DNA from: Nocardiopsis ansamitocini
GTDB lineage: Bacteria > Actinomycetota > Actinomycetes > Streptosporangiales > Streptosporangiaceae
Length of the DNA stretch: 64,000 bases
Direction: 5' to 3'
NCBI RefSeq assembly: GCF_030268225.1
Contig: NZ_BSQG01000002.1
Location: 124,001-188,000 of the forward strand
The notes below the pieces were generated by a model, which saw only the letters and a program-made list of their open reading frames with translations, was not told the DNA's origin and did no database searches. Shown piece by piece: positions 6,215 through 50,715 of the stretch. Numbering within the stretch: the stretch's first letter is position 1; each line of letters begins with the position of its first letter. Made by a program: the position numbers and the translations under genes.

Positions 6215-7639
6215 ATGACGACTAGCCAGGACCCGGCCGGTGCGCCCGAGGAGTTCGACGACGAATTCGCGTCCTCCCCGATGTTGAGCCACGCACCCAA
6301 GTCGCGGTTCCCTTCGGCGGAGAACGACCCGAGGCAGATCTACCAGTTCGTGCACGACGAGCTGATGCTCGACGGCGTGGCGAGGATGAACCTCGCCACC
6401 TTCTGCACCACCTGGGTCGAACCGGAGGTCCGGCAGCTCATGTCCGACTCCATCGACAAGAACATCGTCGACAAGGACGAGTACCCGCAGACCGCGGAGC
6501 TGGAGACGCGCTGTGTCAGCATGCTGGCCGAGCTCTTCCACGCGCCCAGCCCGACGGCCACCCTGGGGACGTCCACGACGGGCTCCAGCGAGGCGGCGAT
6601 GCTCAGCGGCCTGGCTGCCAAGTGGCGTTGGCGCAAACAGCGCGCAGCCCTCGGCAAGGACGTCTCACGTCCCAACTTCGTCTGCGGACCGGTCCAGGTG
6701 TGCTGGGAGAAATTCGGGCGGTACTTCGACGTCGAGATCCGGCAGGTGCCGATGGGGCCGGGGCACGTCATGACACCCGACGAGGCGATCGCCCGATGCG
6801 ACGAGAACACGATCGCCGTCGTCGCGACGTTCGGCCAGACCTTCACGGGGAAGTTCGAGGACGTCGAAGGGATCAGCCGCGCTCTGGACGATCTCCAGGG
6901 CCGTACGGGCCTCGATATCCCGATCCACGTCGACGCCGCCAGCGGTGCCTTCGTCGCGCCGTTCTGTGCCCCCCAGCTGTGCTGGGACTTCCGGTTGCCG
7001 AGGGTCAAGTCGATCAACGCCTCGGGGCACAAGACCGGGCTGGCGCCACTGGGCAGCGGATGGGCGATCTGGCGGGAGAAGGAGGACCTTCCCGAGGAGC
7101 TGATCTTCGACGTCAACTACCTCGGCGGCCAGATGCCGAGCTTCAACCTGAACTTCTCGCGCCCGGGAGGCCAGGTGGTGTGCTCGTACTACAACTTCTT
7201 CCGCCTGGGTCGGCAGGGCTACACCAAAGTCCAGTCCGCCACCTACGCCGTCGCGCGGCATCTCGCCCGAGGGGTGGCCGACATCGAGGAGTTCGAGATC
7301 CTCTTCGACGCCGATCCCCTGCGCGGCATTCCGGCCATCACGTGGACACTTGCGGACCGGGACGCGCCGTACAGCCTCTTCGACGTGGCCGAGGAGCTGC
7401 GCACCCGCGGGTGGCTCGTACCCGCCTACACGCTTCCTCCCGGACAGCAGGACGTCGCGGTGCAGCGCATCATCGTGCGACACGGCCTCAGCCTCGACAT
7501 GGCCGACATGGTGCTGGCGGACATCGTCCAGGCGGTGGCGAAGCTCGCCGCCCGGCCGCCCGCCCGCAAGCTCGTCGCCGCGGAAGCACCCAGCTTCAAT
7601 CACGACGCCGTCCCCGTGGTGCCGGATTCGATGGTCTGA
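6215..7639 (+). CDS. gadB: Glutamate decarboxylase
   Basis: Pyridoxal-phosphate enzyme converting L-glutamate to GABA with CO2 release, 474 residues, the usual length. The group II decarboxylase signature GTSTTGSSEAAMLSGLA lies near residue 112. HVDAASGAFVAPF lies near 245. The PLP lysine is Lys273 in SINASGHKTGLAPLG. FNLNFSRPGGQVV also matches bacterial Gad proteins. It stands alone, without an adjacent glutamate/GABA antiporter. A GABA-route enzyme, succinate-semialdehyde dehydrogenase, occurs at 39.6 kb but is not linked. It acts in the cytosol, giving acid resistance or entry to the GABA shunt. Confidence 0.95.
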   Translation: MTTSQDPAGAPEEFDDEFASSPMLSHAPKSRFPSAENDPRQIYQFVHDELMLDGVARMNLATFCTTWVEPEVRQLMSDSIDKNIVDKDEYPQTAELETRCVSMLAELFHAPSPTATLGTSTTGSSEAAMLSGLAAKWRWRKQRAALGKDVSRPNFVCGPVQVCWEKFGRYFDVEIRQVPMGPGHVMTPDEAIARCDENTIAVVATFGQTFTGKFEDVEGISRALDDLQGRTGLDIPIHVDAASGAFVAPFCAPQLCWDFRLPRVKSINASGHKTGLAPLGSGWAIWREKEDLPEELIFDVNYLGGQMPSFNLNFSRPGGQVVCSYYNFFRLGRQGYTKVQSATYAVARHLARGVADIEEFEILFDADPLRGIPAITWTLADRDAPYSLFDVAEELRTRGWLVPAYTLPPGQQDVAVQRIIVRHGLSLDMADMVLADIVQAVAKLAARPPARKLVAAEAPSFNHDAVPVVPDSMV

Positions 7640-7689
7640 GCGTGCGTGGACCCGCCCCCGGCCGGTGCCCCGGTGACTCTGGGCGTGCG

Positions 7690-8252
7690 CCGCGGCCTTG
7701 GCGCTGTCGGACGTGACGAGGCGCTCGGCGGAGCGGCGGAACGCCCAGATGACGACCAGGGCGACCAGTGCCGTCAGCGGAAAGCCCAACACGACATCGG
7801 AGAAGGCCGGCCCGCTGGTGGAACCGGCGGGGTAGAGCCATTCCCGCACGACGAAACGCGCGGCGAACATGGCCGTGACCGCGAGGGTGGCGATGTCGTG
7901 GGCACGTAGCGAAGGGGCGTCCTGGCGCCAGGCATGCTTGCCGCCGTGGACGGCGTTCCAGATGACGCCGGTCAGCGGCCGGCGCACGACCACCGAGGCC
8001 AGCGTGCCCAGGCCCGCTGCCAGGGCGGCCCAGATCCAGATGAGGAAGAAGTCGTTGGCCGATCCGGTCCAGGCGGCCAGGCCCCCGGCGGCGGCGACGC
8101 CGATCACCCCGCCCATGGCCGCGGAGACGCCCTCTCCGCGCCGCATCCGGAACACGGCTGGCGCCGACGCGACGGTGATCGCGATCCCGACCGTGACCGG
8201 CAGCGGGAGCAAGGAGATGGCGACCGGCACGGTCGTGGTCGGCTTCGGTCAT
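7690..8252 (-). pseudogene. Decayed DUF3159 membrane-protein gene
   Basis: This is a broken paralogue of the intact DUF3159 gene at 14330-15064. It begins with MTEADHDRAG (start at 8252), matching MTDHDHDRADG of the intact copy. About 60 codons are then missing, and the homologous sequence resumes in a different frame at about 8225 and runs through MGGVIGVAAAGG, TGSANDFFLIWIW, VVRRPLTGVIWNAVHG and VVIWAFRRS. After that the frame has no stop where the intact protein ends and would read on into the antisense of the decarboxylase gene. Internal deletion, frameshift and lost stop together indicate a pseudogene, although a GTG at 8230 could still start a truncated product. Confidence 0.7.
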
Positions 8253-8607
8253 CGCGTCCTCCCGGGGTCGGGTGAAGCAGTGGTGCGCAAAGCGGTGCGA
8301 ACGTGGCCGGTCGTGGTCGTCTCGTCCGGCGAACTCGACTCTGGGAAGGCCATGTCGTTCCTTTCGTTCGGACTCGGCGACTCGTTGCGGTCTGCGTCCA
8401 GGGAAAGACCGTGCCGTTACGGCGTGCTCAACCCGCTGTTGATGTGATGCGGGCCACCACGAATGCGGTATCAGGTCCTTGTCGCCCCCGGTGCCCCGGA
8501 TGATGTGCGGGGCACGGTCGTGGTTCGCCGGAGGTCGGGGCGGTGTCGGGGCGGGCGTCGACGGTCCCGGACGACCCCGACCGCCGCGGGTCCTGCCCAC
8601 CGGCCCC
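8253..8607. other. Intergenic, no gene seen
   Basis: Between the decayed DUF3159 gene and the thioesterase gene I see no reading frame with protein-like composition. A stem-loop GTGCCCC-11-GGGGCAC (8491-8515) lies downstream of the thioesterase gene and could end its transcription, but it has no T-run. Confidence 0.4.
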
Positions 8608-9123
8608 TCATCGCCCGGTGGCTTTGTCGCCGGACAATGTCATGACCGTGCTGGAGACCGTCGCGACGGTCGTGCCGTCCGCGCGGATGATGTCACAGGC
8701 GTAATGGGTGATGGTGCGGCCCGAATGGGTCGGACGGGCGCGTGCGAGCAGTTCGCCCGTCCAGACCGGCCGTAGGAAGGTCGCCCTGAGATCGATACTG
8801 GTGAACGACTGGCCCGGCCCGATGAGCGTCGAGCGGGCGGTGCCGATCGCCGCGTCGGCCAACTCGACCAGGAAACCGCCGTGGACCGTGCCCTGCTGGT
8901 TGCCGTGCAGTTTGGTGTCGGCGCGGACGCGCAAGGTGGCGCTCCCCGCTCCCACCTCCACGATCTCGAAGCGGAGCAACTGGGAGATCGCCGTCGGATA
9001 GCGCATGTGGGTGCGCTGCTCCGGACGCAGGGTGCCGGACACCGCCCTTTGCAGATAGGCCAGAACCGGCAGTTCCTCGCCCCGGGGCTCAGGGGCGTTC
9101 GCGTCGACTTCGTCTCGATCCAT
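8608..9123 (-). CDS. PaaI-type hotdog thioesterase
   Basis: Acyl-CoA thioesterase of the hotdog fold, 171 residues. The characteristic helix-containing segment GTVHGGFLVELADAAIG lies near residue 78, followed by TSIDLRATFLRPVWTGELLARA. A fold partner strand THYACDIIRADGTTVAT lies towards the C-terminus. The catalytic acid of the PaaI subgroup would be in the ELADAA stretch. It is cytosolic. It is transcribed divergently from the MocR regulator with only 68 bp between, so the regulator probably controls it. The acyl substrate cannot be deduced. Confidence 0.88.
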   Translation of the reverse strand: MDRDEVDANAPEPRGEELPVLAYLQRAVSGTLRPEQRTHMRYPTAISQLLRFEIVEVGAGSATLRVRADTKLHGNQQGTVHGGFLVELADAAIGTARSTLIGPGQSFTSIDLRATFLRPVWTGELLARARPTHSGRTITHYACDIIRADGTTVATVSSTVMTLSGDKATGR

Positions 9124-9191: not shown

Positions 9192-10520
9192 GTGAGGCAG
9201 CCTCGGTACAAGGCGATCGTCGACCGGTTCGCTGCGGCGATTCGCAGCGGACGGCTGGCCGCTGGATCACGCATGCCCACCCACAGGGAACTCGCCCGCG
9301 ACCACGGCATCGCCCTGGCGACCGCAACGCGTGTCTACACAGAACTGGCCGAAGCCGGGCTCGTGGTCGGAGAACCGGGGCGGGGGACGTTCGTCCGCGA
9401 GCAGTTCGGCTACGACGGGGTCGAGCCGCAGCGCGTCGCGCACGGGAACCGGGTCGCCGACCTGGCTTTCAACCAACCTCTTGATCCGGGCCAGGCGGAC
9501 GACCTCCGCGACAGGCTGCGCGAGTTGGCCGCGACGGGAGACATCGAGACGCTTCTCGTCCAACATCCGCCAGGGGGCCGCAGCACCGACCGAGCCGTCG
9601 TCGCGACGCACCTCCTCGATGCCGGCATAGACGTCGCCCCGGAGAACGTGTTGCTGACCGGCGGGGCACAGCACGGGCTCGACACCGTGCTCAGGGCCCT
9701 CGCCCGCCCCGGTGACGTGATCGCGGTCGACGAACTCACCTACCCGGGCATCAAGCTCATCGCCGACGTCCAAGGGATCGAACTCGCGGCCGTGCGGCAC
9801 ACCGACCGCGGCATGAGCCTCGGATCGCTGGAGAAACTGTGTCGCGAGCGCAGTGTCAAGGCGGTCTACACCATGCCGACACTGCACAATCCGCTCGGCA
9901 GCGTCATGGGCGCCGATGACCGTTCACGGATGGCAGCCGTTGCCCGCCGGTACGACACGTTCCTGATCGAAGACGCCACCTACGCGTTCCTCGCGCCCGA
10001 TGCTCCCGCCCCCTTGTACGCAGTCGCTCCGGAACGAACCGTCTATGTCGCGAGCCTGTCGAAGAACCTCGCGACTGGTCTGCGTTTCGGTTTTCTCGTC
10101 GCGCCGACCGCGCACCGCCACCGCTTGGTCCGTACCCTGAAAGCCTCCAGCTGGGGAACGCCTCCGATCATTGCCGCCCTGGCTGTCGCCTGGCTCCGCA
10201 GCGGCGCGATCACCAGGTGGACACACCAGCGGCGGATCGACGCCCGGAGCCGCCAGCACGTCGCGGCACGCGTGTTCTCCGGCCTCGACTACCGGGCCCA
10301 TCCGGCGGCCTATTTCGGCTGGCTGCGCTTACCGTCCGGGATCCGAGCCGTGCAGATGGAGCGCACGCTTGCCGCGCAGGGCATCCTCGTCTCCACGGCC
10401 GACGAGTTCTCGGTAAGGCCCCATCCGCCGGCCGCTCTCCGGATCTCGCTCTCGGGCACACCCACCCTGGCGACCCTGGAGCGGGTTCTGGAAACGATCC
10501 GTACCGAGCTGCCCCCCTGA
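9192..10520 (+). CDS. MocR/PdxR-type regulator (GntR helix fused to aminotransferase domain)
   Basis: Transcription factor of 442 residues. The N-terminal GntR winged helix shows LAAGSRMPTHRELARDHGIALATATRVYTEL. A linker leads to a fold-type I aminotransferase domain with LLTGGAQHGLDTVLRAL, TMPTLHNPLGS and LIEDATYAFL. The probable PLP lysine is Lys291 in VASLSKNLATGLR. GTG start, with GGAG five bases upstream. PLP-bound MocR proteins respond to amino-acid-like or pyridoxal ligands. The divergent thioesterase is the obvious target. Its ligand is unknown. Confidence 0.92.
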   Translation: MRQPRYKAIVDRFAAAIRSGRLAAGSRMPTHRELARDHGIALATATRVYTELAEAGLVVGEPGRGTFVREQFGYDGVEPQRVAHGNRVADLAFNQPLDPGQADDLRDRLRELAATGDIETLLVQHPPGGRSTDRAVVATHLLDAGIDVAPENVLLTGGAQHGLDTVLRALARPGDVIAVDELTYPGIKLIADVQGIELAAVRHTDRGMSLGSLEKLCRERSVKAVYTMPTLHNPLGSVMGADDRSRMAAVARRYDTFLIEDATYAFLAPDAPAPLYAVAPERTVYVASLSKNLATGLRFGFLVAPTAHRHRLVRTLKASSWGTPPIIAALAVAWLRSGAITRWTHQRRIDARSRQHVAARVFSGLDYRAHPAAYFGWLRLPSGIRAVQMERTLAAQGILVSTADEFSVRPHPPAALRISLSGTPTLATLERVLETIRTELPP

Positions 10521-39307: not shown

Positions 39308-39345
39308 GTGCACTCGGAGGGACTCGAACCCCCAACCTTCTGATC
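39308..39345. repeat. Right attachment site (within tRNA-Arg)
   Basis: Perfect 38-bp copy of 27366-27403. Because the element brings this sequence, the tRNA stays functional after integration. Confidence 0.9.
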
Positions 39346-39381
39346 CGTAGTCAGATGCTCTATCCGTTGAGCTACGAGTGC
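39309..39381 (-). tRNA. tRNA-Arg (anticodon ACG)
   Basis: 73 bases. The acceptor strand GCACTCG pairs with CGAGTGC and is followed by discriminator A; CCA is not encoded. The D arm has AGCTCAACGGATAGAGC. The anticodon loop is CTACGGA, giving anticodon ACG (decoded as ICG). The T loop is GGTTCGAGTCC. Its 3' half is the attachment site of the integrative element, so the 3' 38 bases were supplied by the element. Confidence 0.95.
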
Positions 39382-43599: not shown

Positions 43600-43893
43600 C
43601 CCGGTCGCGCCCCGGCGGCCGGGGCCGTGATCGTCCCCGTTGCCGACGGATACAGGGACCGTCGCAGGAACCACCCAAGGGCCTCGCCTCTTCGGCGCGA
43701 GCCGGTACCGGCCGCGCACCGGCGTTCGCCGACGCCGCCATGCCCGACGGCGCAGCGCTCCAGTACTGTGATGGCCGTAACCACGCGGGGTGTCCCGAGA
43801 CCGTCCGTTCCCGCGGACGCAGGACTGAGACGGGCCGATCGGCCCGAACCCGTCGAACCTGATCTCGTTGACACGAGCGGAGGGACGTTGGGC

Positions 43894-44598
43894 ATGATTC
43901 CTGTTGCCCCTGATGAAACCGGTTTCACAGCCGAGCTGGGCCGTCGGCACGCCGACCTTTTCGAGGCCTTCTACCAGCATCCGTTCTTGCGGGGGATGCG
44001 TGCGGGCACACTCGCCAAGGAGCAGGTGCTGCACTACGTCGGCCAGGACCACCAGTACCTGACCGCCTACATCCGCTGCTACGGCCTGGGGTTGGCGCTC
44101 TCGCCCGACCGCGAGTGGATGCGCTACTTCCACGACAGCGTGGCCTTCGTGCTCAGCGAGGAGGACCACGCCCACCAGGCGCTGTGCGACTTCGCGGGGA
44201 CCAGCTACGCCGACGCGCAGGTGGACGTGCTCGCCCCCAGCGCGCAGGCCTACGTCAACCACATGATGGAAGCGGGGCGCGACAGTCTCGCCGTTCTTCT
44301 GGCGGCGCTGTTGCCCTGCCCGTGGACCTACCTGTGGTCGGCGCAGCGCTTCCTCGCCGAGGGGACCCTTGGAGAGGACCACCCCTTCCACGGCTGGTGG
44401 GCCTTCTACGCCGACCCCTCGATGGGCAGCACCCTGACCCGGCTCCGGGGTCTGCTCGACGAACTGGCGGCTCAGGCGGGAGCTGCGGAGCTGGAGCGGA
44501 TCGAGAAGGCGTTCGTGGCCAGTGTCCATCACGAGGTCCGCTTCTGGCAGATGGCGTGGTCCCTGGAGGACTGGACCCCCGTAGGCTCCGACAGCTGA
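43894..44598 (+). CDS. tenA: TenA/thiaminase II-family protein
   Basis: A helical protein of 234 residues from the ATG at 43894 (GGAGGG nine bases upstream). It shows the TenA pattern HPFLRGMRAGTLAKEQVLHYVGQDHQYL, YFHDSVAFVLSEEDHAHQAL, LAALLPCPWTYLWSAQRF and FVASVHHEVRFWQMAW, including the family Asp, the Tyr in the WTYLW region and the C-terminal Glu. These enzymes hydrolyse aminopyrimidine precursors in thiamine salvage. The Cys of TenA-C enzymes cannot be placed with certainty. It stands alone and ends before a strong bidirectional terminator. Confidence 0.88.
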   Translation: MIPVAPDETGFTAELGRRHADLFEAFYQHPFLRGMRAGTLAKEQVLHYVGQDHQYLTAYIRCYGLGLALSPDREWMRYFHDSVAFVLSEEDHAHQALCDFAGTSYADAQVDVLAPSAQAYVNHMMEAGRDSLAVLLAALLPCPWTYLWSAQRFLAEGTLGEDHPFHGWWAFYADPSMGSTLTRLRGLLDELAAQAGAAELERIEKAFVASVHHEVRFWQMAWSLEDWTPVGSDS

Positions 44599-44709: not shown

Positions 44710-45513
44710 CTACAGCAGCGGCAGCCCGCTGTTGATGTCCACGCCCTCGGTCAGTCCGCCGAGCAGGTCACCCGGCGCCACGGAGTCCGTCCGCGCCTCG
44801 GGCAGACCGATCGTGCCGGCGGCGGAGGCCAGCCCGGCGACCTGGCCGACAGCGGAATCGATGCCGGCCTGCTGCACCTGGACCTGGTCCCGCAGCTCCT
44901 TGGTGGTCGCCGGTGCGACCGTGCCGGGCAGTGCGGTCACGTCGCTCAGCTCCGGGAGCCCGGCGGGCAACCCCACCGGCGCGGCCTGCGCGCTGCGCGC
45001 GGGCGCGGGCAGGGTGACGGGCTGCTCCGGCAGCACCACGGTCTGGTCGGGCAGCGCAAGCGAGCCCGGCAGACCGGCCAGGGCGGCACCGCCGGGAAGC
45101 GCGGACGCAGTGGGCAGCGCGGCCAGGTCAACCAGGTCAACCGGGGAGCTCTGGTGCACCTTCGTCGTGGGAAGCCCGTTGGCCCCCAGCGGGGTGGCCA
45201 CCCCGGGGTCGCCGATGATGAGCAGGCGGGGGAGGGTGGCCAGGCCGGTGTTGAGGTCGCCCAACTGGCTGCCCAGGTCGGTGGCCTCGGCGGGCGACAG
45301 CTCCGGTGCGGCCTGGGAGGTGCGGGGCAGGCCGCCGAGGGACGCGGTGATCGGGCCGGTGATCTTCTCGGCGACGGTGCCGGTCTGGGCCACGGCGTTG
45401 AGGTCGGTGGCGGAGCCGTCGACGATCGCGGCGGAGGCGATCCCGCCGCTCAGCGCGACGAAGCCGGCAGTCAGCAGGAGGGTCTTGGCGGACGTACGGG
45501 CGAAGGTGAACAT
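44710..45513 (-). CDS. Exported Leu/Ala/Pro-rich protein with RxxQxxP repeats, paralogue 1
   Basis: A secreted protein of 267 residues. The signal peptide is MFTFARTSAKTLLLTAGFVA with a cleavage-like ASA at about 28. The mature part has no Cys and is low-complexity (Leu, Ala, Pro, Gly, Val). A short motif recurs: LPRTSQAAPEL, TTKVHQSSPVDL and PARSAQAAPVGL, that is R/K-x-x-Q-x-x-P with flanking Leu. It ends SGLPLL. The next gene has the same start MFTFAR-SAK and the same GLPLL end. Family not recognised; a cell-wall or developmental surface role is a guess. Confidence 0.8.
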   Translation of the reverse strand: MFTFARTSAKTLLLTAGFVALSGGIASAAIVDGSATDLNAVAQTGTVAEKITGPITASLGGLPRTSQAAPELSPAEATDLGSQLGDLNTGLATLPRLLIIGDPGVATPLGANGLPTTKVHQSSPVDLVDLAALPTASALPGGAALAGLPGSLALPDQTVVLPEQPVTLPAPARSAQAAPVGLPAGLPELSDVTALPGTVAPATTKELRDQVQVQQAGIDSAVGQVAGLASAAGTIGLPEARTDSVAPGDLLGGLTEGVDINSGLPLL

Positions 45514-45677
45514 CGTGGTCTTCCTCGTGTCGGGTGTTCGCTGGCTGGCGCGTCGGTCATGGCCCTGGTGCGAAACCGACCCACGCGCGGGGAACGGCCG
45601 TGCCGGGCGGCGTGGCCGAAGGGGGTGGGGCCCGGAAACGGGCGGGTGCTTCCGGGCCCGGTGAAAGGCGGTCCGTA

Positions 45678-47198
45678 CTACAGGAGGGGCAGCCCGGGCA
45701 GTTCGTCGGTGATCGAGCGGTCGGAGGTGGTCACGCCGGTGTCCACGGGCAGCTCGGGGAGCCGCTCGACCGCCGACAGGCGAGGCAGGCCGGGGAGTTC
45801 GACCGGGACGGACACGGGGGACGCCTGCTGCTGGCGGGGCAGACTGGCCAGCAGGTCGTTGGTCAGTTTGGTCTCGGTGAGCACGTCGCTGGCGGCCTTG
45901 CCGACGACGTGGGCCGGAGTGGCGAGGTTGGTGCCGGTGACCAGCCCGCTCGGGGCCTGCTCCTGGTTGGTGCCGGGAATCCCGTTCTCGAAGTGCGGGA
46001 GGCCGGCCGGAACGCCGGAGGGTGTTGCGGGGCCGCTCTGGAACTGGCGGGGGGCAAGCCCGACGACCGCGTCGGCCAGCTGTTCCTCGATGGCGGGTTC
46101 GGCGTTGAGCACGCCCATGTCCACGCCCTCCAGCGGTGACAGCGCCGTGCCCTGCTGGCTTTCGCGGGTGCCGCCGGGCAGTGCGGGAAGCTCGATCCCG
46201 GTCAGTTTGGTCACGAGCTGCTGCTCGATGGAGTCGCGCCCGCTCAGGACGCCGACGCTGCCGCCCTCGATCGGAACGGCAACAGTGTCGGGACGGCCCG
46301 CCGGGCCGGCCTGTGCGGTGCGCGCAGTGCCGGGCAGGCTCGCTCCGTCGAGCATGCGGGTCAGGTCACCGGTGGACAGGCCGGCGACAAGGGCCTCTGC
46401 CGGTGCGATCAGCTCACCGACGGACGGGGTCGCGATCAGGGTGTCGGGCTGCTGCTGGGGCAGGTCGGCCAGGTCGGTGCGGTGGTGCTGGGGCTCGCGG
46501 GCGCCGCCGGTCAGCGAGTCCAGGTCCAGCTTGGGCACCAGACCGGTCACGCCGCCCAGCGCCGGGCCCCCGAGCTGCGTCTTTTCGGTGAGGTCGGTGC
46601 CCAGGCCGGCGGTCGCGCTGTCCGCGACCGACTTCACCGTCAGTTGGCCGGCCCCCTCGTTCAACTGGTCCGCGCCGGCGCTCAGCTGGCTCGCACCGTC
46701 GCCCAACCCGTCCAGCAGCGTGTCCGCTCCGTCGCGGACCTGCTTCGTCCCCAGGTCGGAGGTCGCCCGGTGCGACTGCGGCGAGCGGGTGTCCAGTGCG
46801 CTCAACGGGGTTTCGGCCAAAAGTTCCCGCACACCGGTGGCCTCGTCCACCTCGTCGGAGACCTGCTCGGGGATTCCGGCCACGGTCGGAACGTGCGGGG
46901 CGACGGTACCGGCGGGAGCGCCTGCCAGGGTCTCCACGACGCCTCCGGTGGGCGTGAGCCCCAGGCCGGTCGGGCCGCTCTGGGGCAGGCGGCCCTGCCC
47001 GCCCAGGACGCCCGTGGGCAGGGCCTTGGTCAGACCGGTCGCACCGAGCGCGTCCGCGCTCCCGCCGAGAGGGGCACCGAGGTTTCCGGTGGGCAGCATA
47101 CTGTCCGCGACTGCGATTCCGGTTCCCAGGCCGACGAATCCCGCCACCCCGGCGGTGAGCAGAATGGCTTTGGCGGATTTGCGGGCGAACGTGAACAT
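45678..47198 (-). CDS. Exported protein with RxxQxxP repeats, paralogue 2
   Basis: A secreted protein of 506 residues. The signal peptide is MFTFARKSAKAILLTAGVAG with an AVA-type cleavage near 30. The repeat motif of paralogue 1 recurs at least seven times (GRLPQSGPTGL, LADLPQQQPDTL, GTARTAQAGPAG, GTRESQQGTAL, PRQFQSGPAT, PRQQQASPVSV). The region DGLGDGASQLSAGADQLNEG has the heptad look of YhgE/MmpL-type coiled segments. It ends LPGLPLL like its neighbour, 164 bp downstream. No Cys is seen. It probably arose by duplication and expansion. Function unknown. Confidence 0.8.
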   Translation of the reverse strand: MFTFARKSAKAILLTAGVAGFVGLGTGIAVADSMLPTGNLGAPLGGSADALGATGLTKALPTGVLGGQGRLPQSGPTGLGLTPTGGVVETLAGAPAGTVAPHVPTVAGIPEQVSDEVDEATGVRELLAETPLSALDTRSPQSHRATSDLGTKQVRDGADTLLDGLGDGASQLSAGADQLNEGAGQLTVKSVADSATAGLGTDLTEKTQLGGPALGGVTGLVPKLDLDSLTGGAREPQHHRTDLADLPQQQPDTLIATPSVGELIAPAEALVAGLSTGDLTRMLDGASLPGTARTAQAGPAGRPDTVAVPIEGGSVGVLSGRDSIEQQLVTKLTGIELPALPGGTRESQQGTALSPLEGVDMGVLNAEPAIEEQLADAVVGLAPRQFQSGPATPSGVPAGLPHFENGIPGTNQEQAPSGLVTGTNLATPAHVVGKAASDVLTETKLTNDLLASLPRQQQASPVSVPVELPGLPRLSAVERLPELPVDTGVTTSDRSITDELPGLPLL

Positions 47199-47348
47199 AG
47201 AGGTCCTTCGGTGTTGTCAGTGGGGGCGGGCCTGTCCGGCCGCGCCGCGGTACTCATGTGTGATTAGGGGCCGGCCGCCTCGCGTGTCCGAGGACGGTGC
47301 GGGCTGGCGTGCCGGGAGTCAGCTGTGAGGTCTGGCGGACCACTGGCT

Positions 47349-47413
47349 GACCTGAATCCCGTGGGACGGGGTTACGGGACTCAGGTCAACCCCCAGCGGA
47401 AGAGGCGCTGGGA
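47349..47413. terminator. Double stem-loop after the exported-protein gene at 47523
   Basis: GACCTGAATCCCGT/ACGGGACTCAGGTC (47349-47387, one mismatch) is followed by CCCAGCG/CGCTGGG (to 47413). It lies downstream of the minus-strand gene ending at 47523 and upstream of paralogue 2. No gene lies in 47199-47522. Confidence 0.6.
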
Positions 47414-47522
47414 GGGGGAGCCGCCGGCCGAAGGCCGGTACGGGCAGGGGCTGTCGCACGTGCCATGACGTCTGCGAGTGCCTGCTGTCGCCGGGAAGAG
47501 ATCCGGCGGTCGGTCCGGTCGG

Positions 47523-48362
47523 CTAGTCGGGGGAGGAGAAGTGCTCGTCCGCGGGCTGCTGCGGGACGAGTTCCAGCGCGTGCCTGGTCGCCGACGCCAG
47601 CGCATCGCCCTTGGGGGCGACGGGCTGGTGGGCCAGGTATCCGGCGAACCCGCCGGGGAAAGCGCCGCTCTGTGCCTGGGGGGACCCTGCTGAGACGGAC
47701 TGGTGCGCTGACGCGACCGGTTCGTCGGGCAGGACCGGCGCCGGAGCCGGTGCGTGCGTCAGAGCGCCCGCGGTGAACGCGGTCGGTCCGCTCCGGGCTG
47801 CGGGCTGGTGAGGTGACACGGAAGGAGAGGGAGAGGGGGAGGCATTGAGGACCGGGGCCTCCGCGGATTCGCGGGGGGTGGGCTCTGCCTCGGTCTCGGT
47901 CCCGTTCTCAACCGCAGGCTCCGCCGGCAGCGTTCGGGGCGGTACGGCCCTGGCGGGCCCGGCCGGCTGGGTGATGCCGACGATCGCACCGACGGGCGTG
48001 GTCGACTGGTGAAGCCCCTGGAGGTCGGGAAGGACGATTTCGGGGTGTTGTTCGCCGACCACAGTGGCGGGGACCGTCTCGGTGACTGCCGAACGGGCTC
48101 CGCTCACGATGTTTTCCGCCGTGTGAGCGACCGAGAGGAGTTCCGTTCCGGCCGTGCTGTGTTCCGCGGCTGTCGTGGTGACCGCCTCGGTGGCGCGGTC
48201 CAGGGTCGCCAATGCGTCGGCTCCGGCCGGCGCGGAGCCGACCAGCCACGCCGTGGCCATGAACCCGCCGATGACCATCAGGCGGCGTGCCATTGGGGAC
48301 CTCAGGGCACGGGCGACACCGAAGGAGCGCGTCGTGCGCTCTTTTCGGCTGTTCCGTGCCAC
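47523..48362 (-). CDS. Exported Pro/Ala/Ser-rich protein with conserved C-terminal motif
   Basis: A protein of 279 residues. A basic N-terminus (RNSRKERTTRS) and the hydrophobic segment RLMVIGGFMATAWLVGSAPAGA form a signal peptide, followed by about 170 residues rich in Ala, Pro, Ser, Thr and Glu. The C-terminus GGFAGYLAHQPVAPKG, ALELVPQQPADEHFSSPD recalls a conserved actinobacterial exported family whose members also end in PADE-x-FSPD. One HQSTTP copy of the motif of the two genes downstream is present (GLHQSTTPVGA). The function is unknown. It lies on the same strand as the paralogue pair. Confidence 0.75.
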   Translation of the reverse strand: MARNSRKERTTRSFGVARALRSPMARRLMVIGGFMATAWLVGSAPAGADALATLDRATEAVTTTAAEHSTAGTELLSVAHTAENIVSGARSAVTETVPATVVGEQHPEIVLPDLQGLHQSTTPVGAIVGITQPAGPARAVPPRTLPAEPAVENGTETEAEPTPRESAEAPVLNASPSPSPSVSPHQPAARSGPTAFTAGALTHAPAPAPVLPDEPVASAHQSVSAGSPQAQSGAFPGGFAGYLAHQPVAPKGDALASATRHALELVPQQPADEHFSSPD

Positions 48363-49011
48363 AGCGTGGTCCCCTCGACGGCGGCAAGCCTGATTGTCGC
48401 TCAGAGTGGCGATCGGCTACGAAAAGTGACCGTAGCATGATCGGTTGTGACCGCAACCCGAATTCCGGGAAATCTTCGGGCCCCAACCCATCAGGTATGT
48501 CCGTGGGGCGACCACCTGGCCCGGGAGGCCCCCGGGGAGGCCGGGACGGCCAGAAGGCGCCGGTCATCGGTCGGTGCGACGGCTCGGGACCAAAGGCCCG
48601 GGCGAAACCAGGGCTTTGGACCGCTGTTAGGCCGTGCGTCACACGGTTTACTCGTTCAGGTAGCGGGGCCGGGGCGTGCGGTCCTCACCCCGCCTGCCAC
48701 CCCTTCGGGGCGGTGCGCATGAAGCGAGGTCGAATCCGAGGCCGCCGTCGCGGCCTTCTCGCTCATGATGACCCCGAGGTCAGGAGCCCGGACCGGTACG
48801 CGGACCCGTCCGGGCTCCACTCCTCCCGCCGTGGTGTGCAGGAGAGCGGCAATCCATTCGGTCGCTCCGGAACACCTCCCCAATGTCACGGTCCTCGGCC
48901 ACGATCGCCCCGAAACCGTCTATCTGAAAGGGATTCAGGGTCCGAACGGTGGCCCGGTTTGCTCTCATTGCGGTGAATCAGGGGATAGCGTGGTCTCGGA
49001 GGTATGGACAC
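48363..49011. other. Divergent intergenic region, no gene seen
   Basis: About 650 bp between the exported-protein gene and the histidine kinase gene. Open frames here are Arg/Pro-rich and unlike proteins. It must hold promoters for both sides. GGAGG at 48998-49002 serves the kinase start. Confidence 0.5.
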
Positions 49012-50715
49012 GTGCCCGAGCCCCCGGTGCGCCCAGAGCGCCCATTGCTGCCCCAAATGCGGTTGGACGAGTTGCTCACCGAGGTCCAGGCCCGCCTGGC
49101 CGACGCACTCTCCACCAGAGACCGGCTCCACTCGCTACTGGAAGCCGTCGTCTCCATTGGCGGTGACCTCGATTTGGCCACCGTGCTGCGAAGACTCACC
49201 AAGGCCGCCGCACACCTGGTCAACGCCCGTTACGCCGGTCTGGGGGTGGTGGACCACAACGGCAACGTCAGCGAGTTCATCCCCGTCGGCTTCACCGAAG
49301 AGCAGTTCCGGCGCATGCCGCACTACCCGCGCGGCAAGGGCCTGCTCGCCTACCCCACCCGCGAACGCCGTTCTCTGCGGTTGAGCCGGATGCAGGATCA
49401 TCCGAGCTTTCACGGGTTTCCCGAAGGCCACCCCCCGATGACCACCTTCCTCGGTGTACCCATCCAGGTGCGCGACGAGGTGTTCGGCAACCTCTATCTC
49501 ACCGAGAAGTACGACGGCGGCGAGTTCGACGAGGACGACGAGGCGATCGTCAGCGCGTTGGCCACTGCCGCGGGGGTTGCCATCGCCAACGCCCGACTCT
49601 ACGAGGAGAGCCGCCAACGGGAGCGCTGGCGTTCGGCCTCCACCGAGATCACCACGCGGTTGCTGTCGGGGGTGGCGGCCGAGGAGGTACTGGCCTACCT
49701 GGCCGAGCAGGCCCGCGAGATGGTCGACGCCGACATCGCCGCTGTGATGCTGCCCGACTCCCAGGACGGTTACCTCGTCGCCGAGATCGCCGAGGGCGCC
49801 GGCGCCAAAGAGCTGCTCGGCATGGCAGTCGAGGTGGAAGGGACCGAGTGCGGTTCCGTGTACCGCAGGGGCGAGGGGGTCATGGTGGCCGACCTGCGCG
49901 AACTCGCCCTTCCGTTCCCGCCGGAGTACGATTTCCGCCCCGGCCTCCTCGTCCCCCTCGGTTCGCCCCACCATGCCCGCGGCGTCCTCTTGCTGGGCAA
50001 AGCCGGACTGAGCAGCCCGTTCAACCCTGCGGCGCTGGGAATGCTGAGCGCTTTCTCCGGCCAGGCGGCCGTCGCCCTGGAGTTGGCGGAGGCGCGCCAC
50101 GACGCCGAGCGGCTGGTCGTGCTCGAGGACCGCGACCGTATCGCCAAGGACCTGCACGACATCGTCATTCAGCGGCTGTTCGCCTCCGCCATGACCTTGA
50201 TGAGCACGGTCCGCATGATCGCCGATCCCGAAGCGGGCAACCGCGTCCAGCGCACGATCGACGACCTGGACGAGACGATCCGCGAGATCAGGTCCACCGT
50301 CTTCGCGCTCCAGGCGACCACCGAGGTCCAGGAGGCATCTCTTCGCGGACGCATCCTCACCACGGTGGAGAACGCCGCACACACGCTGGTCTGCCGGCCC
50401 GGTGTCGGGTTGGACGGGCCGATCGACGCCTCGGTCCCCGACGACGTGGGGGACCACGTGCTTGCCGTGTTGCGCGAGGCCCTTTCCAACGTGGCCAGAC
50501 ACGCCAGCGCCGACGAAGTCCACGTCAGTGTGCAGGCGGAGGACGGCGAGCTGCGATTGGAGGTCGGCGACAACGGAGTGGGCATCCCTGAACAAGGCCG
50601 CCGCAGCGGACTCCGCAACATGGCCGAGCGCGCCACCGGGTTGGGGGGGCACTTCGCCGTCTCCCCGCGGGCCGGCGGTGGCACGCTCCTGGAATGGGTT
50701 GTCCCCATCGGCTAG
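49012..50715 (+). CDS. DevS-like histidine kinase with two GAF domains
   Basis: A sensor kinase of 567 residues from the GTG at 49012, chosen for GGAGG nine bases upstream. The first GAF domain (about 45-190) has the DevS/DosT-type segment GFPEGHPPMTTFLGVPI with His140 at HPPM. The second GAF domain (about 205-360) follows. The HisKA_3 phospho-acceptor is His382 in RIAKDLHDIVIQRLF. The HATPase domain has VLREALSNVARHA and GVGIPEQGRRSGLRNM. No membrane segment, so cytosolic. It would sense redox or gas through GAF-A and phosphorylate the DevR-like regulator at 42467. Heme binding is not proven. Confidence 0.92.
   Translation: MPEPPVRPERPLLPQMRLDELLTEVQARLADALSTRDRLHSLLEAVVSIGGDLDLATVLRRLTKAAAHLVNARYAGLGVVDHNGNVSEFIPVGFTEEQFRRMPHYPRGKGLLAYPTRERRSLRLSRMQDHPSFHGFPEGHPPMTTFLGVPIQVRDEVFGNLYLTEKYDGGEFDEDDEAIVSALATAAGVAIANARLYEESRQRERWRSASTEITTRLLSGVAAEEVLAYLAEQAREMVDADIAAVMLPDSQDGYLVAEIAEGAGAKELLGMAVEVEGTECGSVYRRGEGVMVADLRELALPFPPEYDFRPGLLVPLGSPHHARGVLLLGKAGLSSPFNPAALGMLSAFSGQAAVALELAEARHDAERLVVLEDRDRIAKDLHDIVIQRLFASAMTLMSTVRMIADPEAGNRVQRTIDDLDETIREIRSTVFALQATTEVQEASLRGRILTTVENAAHTLVCRPGVGLDGPIDASVPDDVGDHVLAVLREALSNVARHASADEVHVSVQAEDGELRLEVGDNGVGIPEQGRRSGLRNMAERATGLGGHFAVSPRAGGGTLLEWVVPIG

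Follow-up and report, generated by a model that had tools for sequence, protein, structure and literature searches.

What are the two exported proteins that Nocardiopsis ansamitocini encodes side by side, with a common start, a common end and a recurring RxxQxxP motif, and to which larger system do they belong? The question is raised by a window of 64,000 nucleotides (nt), i.e., positions 124,001 to 188,000 of contig NZ_BSQG01000002.1, within which the positions below are counted. Three genes follow each other on the minus strand: gene C (47523..48362, 279 amino acids, aa), gene B (45678..47198, 506 aa) and gene A (44710..45513, 267 aa). These boundaries, given in an original prediction made from the letters alone, are correct. 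A and B are tandem paralogues which start with MFTFARTSAK and MFTFARKSAK, respectively, and both terminate in GLPLL, as had been noticed. C has a hydrophobic N-terminal segment and ends in DEHFSSPD, which places it in what we call the SPD-tail family. We are moderately inclined to view A and B as surface-coat proteins which are associated with chaplins, yet are devoid of chaplin domains, and which together with C constitute one copy of a module of SPD-tail protein, structured leader and exported partner. Neither the link to long chaplins nor the tail family of C nor the hairpin leader formed part of the original prediction.

The databases contribute little to the identity of these proteins. 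No Pfam family matched A, B or C, for A and B none up to E 1, and a sequence search of the PDB returned no match. The sole NCBIfam match in A and B is a heptad repeat of 22 residues in B (TIGR03057, X-X-X-Leu-X-X-Gly; residues 165-186, above the model cut-off). Beyond this short segment of B, neither database supplies a family. TIGR03057 is found in only one of 38 family members and is, therefore, not a family feature. With no Pfam family and only TIGR03057 in NCBIfam, A and B do not qualify as rodlins. In a literature search, from which subscription journals were largely missing, neither the motif nor a family with an SPD tail nor a leader RNA of chaplin genes was mentioned.

The gene order is the first line of evidence. 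Relatives of C have in common a hydrophobic segment at the N-terminus, in which a Trp is conserved, and the C-terminal stretch AGYL...DEPTFSPD; the consensus end reads ..D(E/D)P(T/S)(F/V)SPD, of which the last letters are in part a construct of the selection, which required a final PD, while D(E/D)P(T/S)(F/V) is so only partly. Fourteen members compared with Pfam and NCBIfam had no match, and a structural model of C has low confidence overall with one confident helix at 23-42. A script applied to 85 loci (the window, L061-L120 and L156-L179) picked out a single SPD-tail gene in each of 73. Behind all 73, on the same strand, comes an exported partner, which is either B-like or consists of an LPxTG-type chaplin and then a long chaplin; L061-L120 were mostly retrieved by a profile of the partner, which conditions their share of the count, L156-L179 by the SPD-tail profile. 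Of the 12 loci without a recognised SPD-tail gene, L069 and L084 do possess one, i.e., some are misses of the script. The window conforms to this order on its minus strand: C, then the leader (47301..47398), then B. In addition, a third type of paralogous module (L082, L083, L086, L100-L112 and others) has partners which start with MTQxKR and end with EALPVVS, also under the leader.

The second line of evidence leads to the chaplins. Searching 60 relatives with a single protein yielded weak matches only; read by eye, some of these were syntenic, with a B-like gene beside a gene for an SPD-ending product (G006, G008) or with a TenA gene adjoining such a pair (G023). At E<=0.01 a profile from five proteins matched 52 of 250 family genomes, and it led to 14 named loci in Nocardiopsis, Streptomonospora, Allosalinactinospora, Allonocardiopsis and a record under the name Glycomyces fuscus. 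Several of these relatives are long chaplins, proteins which presumably coat aerial filaments; their signal peptide is very similar (MRKWVRTSAKTALLTAGFVALGAGVSFAD), and the motif is placed between their chaplin domains. The genome of N. ansamitocini itself has 13 matches of the chaplin domain (PF03777, ChpA-C) in five open frames. One of these encodes a chaplin of 468 aa with six SGNG repeats, a signal peptide of the type of B and the motifs RTSQLAP and RSHQAAP in its linkers; its end has no sortase signal. This gene (6636-8042 of locus L114, as are the following, all on the minus strand) belongs to a sister module: an SPD-tail gene (9226-10266), a chaplin with an LPVTG-type end (8350-9042) and a leader (8216-8321) precede it. 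A and B lack both the chaplin domain and an LPxTG anchor and fail the domain test for chaplins; as PF03777 is absent from B-like proteins, this applies to them likewise. Judged by their sequences, B-like proteins have the export signal, the motif, the leader and the partner gene in common with long chaplins. Because the same slot under the same leader is taken by either long chaplins or B-like proteins, we propose a role in the surface coat. A partner in L058 (6001-7134, plus strand) has apparently degenerate chaplin repeats (DGRGSILGGNQ) and possibly stands between long chaplins and B-like proteins.

The third line of evidence is the leader, a conserved inverted repeat in front of the partner gene which surfaced during a promoter scan of upstream regions. 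In the window its core, as delimited by our model R1, lies in the gap between C and B and ends 102 nt ahead of the start codon of B (87.6 bits, E 3.0e-18). Its association with the module was examined by a strict seed scan of 1.18 Mb, independent of any model, in which an element was counted within 2.6 kb downstream of an SPD-tail gene. Such an element follows 69 of 73 SPD-tail genes; no hits came from sequence that had been reversed or complemented. The scan had 129 hits on both strands, of which three remained unassigned: those in L079 and L090 are second hits in the same leader, the one in L113 is a reverse-strand shadow. Among the four misses L113 (G108) has a match to R1. Of 21 elements looked at more closely (20 newly fetched plus L115), all have an SPD-ending tail upstream, and for 16 a candidate partner was recognised downstream.

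R1 has matches at E<=0.01 in 55 of 250 genomes of the family and in 19 of 68 genera. Among 296 genomes of the class the SPD-tail profile and R1, each at E<1e-6, single out the same 17, all from the family of the window; as R1 was built partly from these genomes this is co-occurrence and not independent discovery. Three marginal R1 hits outside of the family (E 9e-4 to 5e-3) were set aside. Relaxed to E<=0.05, the SPD-tail profile reports 118 of the 296 genomes. The 101 beyond the 17 are read as matches of composition except for G089 (L175), which has a gene pair with the tail DEPFFAPD. N. ansamitocini has two leaders, one ahead of B and one ahead of the long chaplin; A has none.

The form of the leader points to an RNA. 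In the window a first hairpin (CCCAGCG/CGCTGGG, 47392..47412) is located directly 5' of a long stem of 18 base pairs (47345..47391), which is succeeded by a small hairpin (GGUC-CGCCA-GACC, 47329..47341); all three are on the minus strand. The 324-nt gap between C and B folds at a z-score of -3.47, a 114-nt core at -4.58. Among 56 leaders, 53 have YCCAG on the 5' side of the stem, compared with 31% in shuffles. Covariation was evaluated in an alignment (A4) of 48 leaders, obtained from 55 selected ones upon removal of two wrong-strand rows and five leaders with long loops (L079, L080, L099, L101, L158). A stem of 17 pairs and a hairpin of four, a structure chosen from the very sequences on which it was tested, have standard pairs in 90.2% of the cells. 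Double changes are present at 12 pairs and amount to 72 cells, compared to 24.7 +/- 7.2 in shuffles (0 of 500 as high) and 4-25 in slid controls; kinship lets sequences exceed shuffles easily, so that most weight lies with the slid controls and with how diverse the pair types are. At columns 15-60 C-G replaces G-C in three leaders, that of the window included. A third helix (CAGYCG/CGRCUG), whose formation would be at the expense of the lowest part of the long stem, can be discerned by eye in many leaders; it has mismatches in several and was not counted.

Could the conserved hairpin be a DNA operator instead, i.e., an inverted repeat for a developmental regulator, with B under a promoter of its own in the gap? 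The arms (TGACGTGAG and TTCACGTCAG) are highly conserved even where pairing is lost, and columns 13-62, 15-60 and 16-59 are unpaired in 9-11 of the 48 leaders. Against this, the pair types change in register (CG/UA/UG at 20-55, CG/UA at 25-50) and the second hairpin covaries as well. Further, the spacing between the arms ranges from 13 to 64 nt, and in this genome R1 reaches 87.6 bits in sense orientation and 29.4 bits in the opposite one. The variable spacing and the strand-specific score favour an RNA, and we consider an operator rather unlikely. Rfam has no family for it: in the gap between C and B nothing reached the gathering score and the best sub-threshold matches were far below their cut-offs; likewise, no family fits the leaders from four relatives. 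The element shares with the structured leaders of Rfam its position ahead of a defined class of genes, yet matches no family among them.

The motif is the fourth line of evidence. Of the three copies originally ascribed to A, two are RxxQxxP (R64, R173) and the third is a VHQSSP form with His (Q121). For B at least seven copies had been announced, and seven RxxQ are indeed counted (R70, R138, R234, R293, R345, R384, R455), four with a Pro three residues past the Gln. The single HQSTTP form predicted for C is present as LHQSTTP at Q119; C has no RxxQ. When each mature sequence was shuffled 5000 times, the seven RxxQ of B compared with a mean of 0.93 and its four RxxQxxP with 0.09 (0 of 5000 as high in both cases), and the two RxxQxxP of A with 0.03 (4 of 5000 as high); in C an excess of RxxQ over shuffles was not seen. 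The notion of exported paralogues with a recurring motif is borne out.

When the relatives are included a more general form emerges. The main count used 47 dereplicated partner proteins out of 70. In these Q[SA][AGS]P has 24 copies, spread over 17 proteins, where shuffles average 2.75 and reversed sequences give 0; the figures for HQ[SA] are 30 copies in 18 proteins (shuffled 1.8; reversed 2), those for [RH]Q[SA].P 16 copies in 12 (shuffled 0.44; reversed 0). A second, narrower set of 34 proteins (46 recovered with a narrow pattern) agrees with the main count: for the most part, position -3 is T, V or R, position -1 is P, H or R, and V or A succeeds the proline. RxxQxxP is thus a variant of a Q(S/A)(A/G/S)P core, which is met also in related proteins of Nocardiopsis and allied genera; in relatives it is this core, rather than the Arg at -3, that is constant. 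In a B-like protein of G065 the motif (RHAQ...) recurs about every 37 residues; in B and this relative together the spacing is about 37-71 residues. As bearers of the same motif the SPD-tail proteins were considered and dismissed as weak: HQ[SA] has 11 copies in 9 of 59 proteins (mean 3.1, with a shuffled maximum also of 11) and Q[SAT][AGS]P 11 versus 6.7. Another recurring word, NGxVHxTxN or NGLVHGTVN, is seen in many B-like proteins (L061-L064, L067, L071 and others); NGTV and GTVH rank among the most over-represented 4-mers in the partners.

One may object that RxxQ is a by-product of relaxed low complexity, that A and B are bulk disordered secreted chains and that no short word in them is important. 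A and B are rich in Ala, Gly, Leu and Pro, B is modelled as structureless, TLPx, DLTG and NGTV are over-represented short words as well, and numerous partners have no Q[SA][AGS]P. The refuting condition named in the original prediction, a motif which orthologues do not conserve and which reflects composition alone, is not borne out: 24 copies are found where shuffled and reversed sequences have 2.75 and 0. Moreover, long chaplins of this group, and one in this very genome, carry the motif too. We are doubtful of this objection to about the same extent as of the operator. Still less probable is a protease site at which the partner would be cut into peptides of about 40-70 residues, the size of short chaplins. 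The spacing of the copies is close to the size of a chaplin domain and the motif is situated between domains in long chaplins; on the other hand, many relatives have no copy at all, and no candidate protease was identified in the module, where none was sought. That the Gln, the constant residue of the motif, is cross-linked by a transglutaminase to fix the coat, as in a Streptomyces surface protein, is very improbable, with PF09017 in none of 120 family genomes, N. ansamitocini among them, a search which is not decisive as control genomes were silent too.

This leaves the coat module as our preferred explanation. It is built on what can be read from the genomes, namely gene order, signal-peptide type, motif and the leader with its covariation. 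In the Nocardiopsis group the unit would consist of an SPD-tail protein, a structured leader and an exported partner; the partner of the sister copy is a six-repeat chaplin, ahead of which lies another chaplin bearing an LPVTG-type anchor, and in the window the partner slot would be filled by exported, mostly disordered Gly/Ala/Leu/Pro-rich chains. The motif, here (R/T)xxQ(S/A)(A/G)P, would mark off blocks some 37-70 residues long, just as it parts the chaplin domains of long chaplins, and may be a short docking or linker element by which A and B co-assemble with the chaplin layer. The stem of 17-18 base pairs ahead of B may be a site of processing or stability of the C-B transcript; we infer that it would allow the coat protein to be expressed separately from the SPD-tail protein. 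According to PMC12096830, S. venezuelae mutants in RNase III and RNase J show strong upregulation of the chaplin and rodlin genes, which the paper places within the (indirect) BldD regulon; this lends indirect support to a processing site. A functional comparison is offered by the rodlins RdlA and RdlB of Streptomyces, likewise exported non-chaplin proteins which act together with chaplins; the review PMC4255298 reports obvious rodlins from streptomycetes alone, and chaplin-like genes from Nocardiopsis dassonvillei and Thermobifida fusca.

Several results weigh against this explanation. PF03777 is present in only two of 38 aligned proteins, both long chaplins, and no A- or B-like protein matches it. 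Thirty of the 47 partners have no Q[SA][AGS]P; because of this the motif does not define the family or the module. L159, L173 and L175 have no leader by either seed scan or model, i.e., the module can exist without a recognisable one. A BldN-type promoter consensus shows no excess over shuffled sequence upstream of module genes. The idea that the leader hairpin masks the ribosome-binding site was tested and rejected (mean longest complementarity 5.15 versus 5.08 in shuffles). Finally, the model of B shows no structure beyond the signal helix, and its mean pLDDT (predicted local distance difference test) of 42.7 from as few as 10 sequences is weak evidence of disorder.

The surroundings of the module contain further genes. 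A gene which from its sequence appears to encode a sensor histidine kinase (48949..50715, plus strand) is divergently oriented and adjoins the C-B pair in many relatives. On the other side of A lies an open reading frame for what is presumably a TenA-like protein (43627..44598, plus strand), a gene which adjoins the module also in L065, L068, L074, L113 and, by eye, L152. The name agrees with a thiamine pyrophosphate (TPP) riboswitch which Rfam detects in front of it (43776-43902, plus strand; 67 bits, above the gathering score); as the listed frame overlaps the riboswitch, the true start is probably further downstream. Rfam also identifies a tRNA gene at 39309-39381 on the minus strand.

Taken together, the data suggest a surface-coat gene module which has not been described so far. 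Tentatively, and with distinctly less assurance than for the coat association itself, one may go a step further: a new class of leader RNA, restricted to the Nocardiopsis group, would control a two-part coat module in which Q(S/A)(A/G)P, as a docking motif, allows interchangeable exported scaffolds, either multi-chaplin or wholly disordered, to enter one common layer along with a dedicated SPD-tailed anchor or chaperone. Coat assembly is poorly described outside of Streptomyces. The module supplies candidate non-chaplin coat proteins, a partner family defined by its tail and a leader open to deletion or mutation. Through it, the question of what organises the coat layer in these bacteria would become directly testable.

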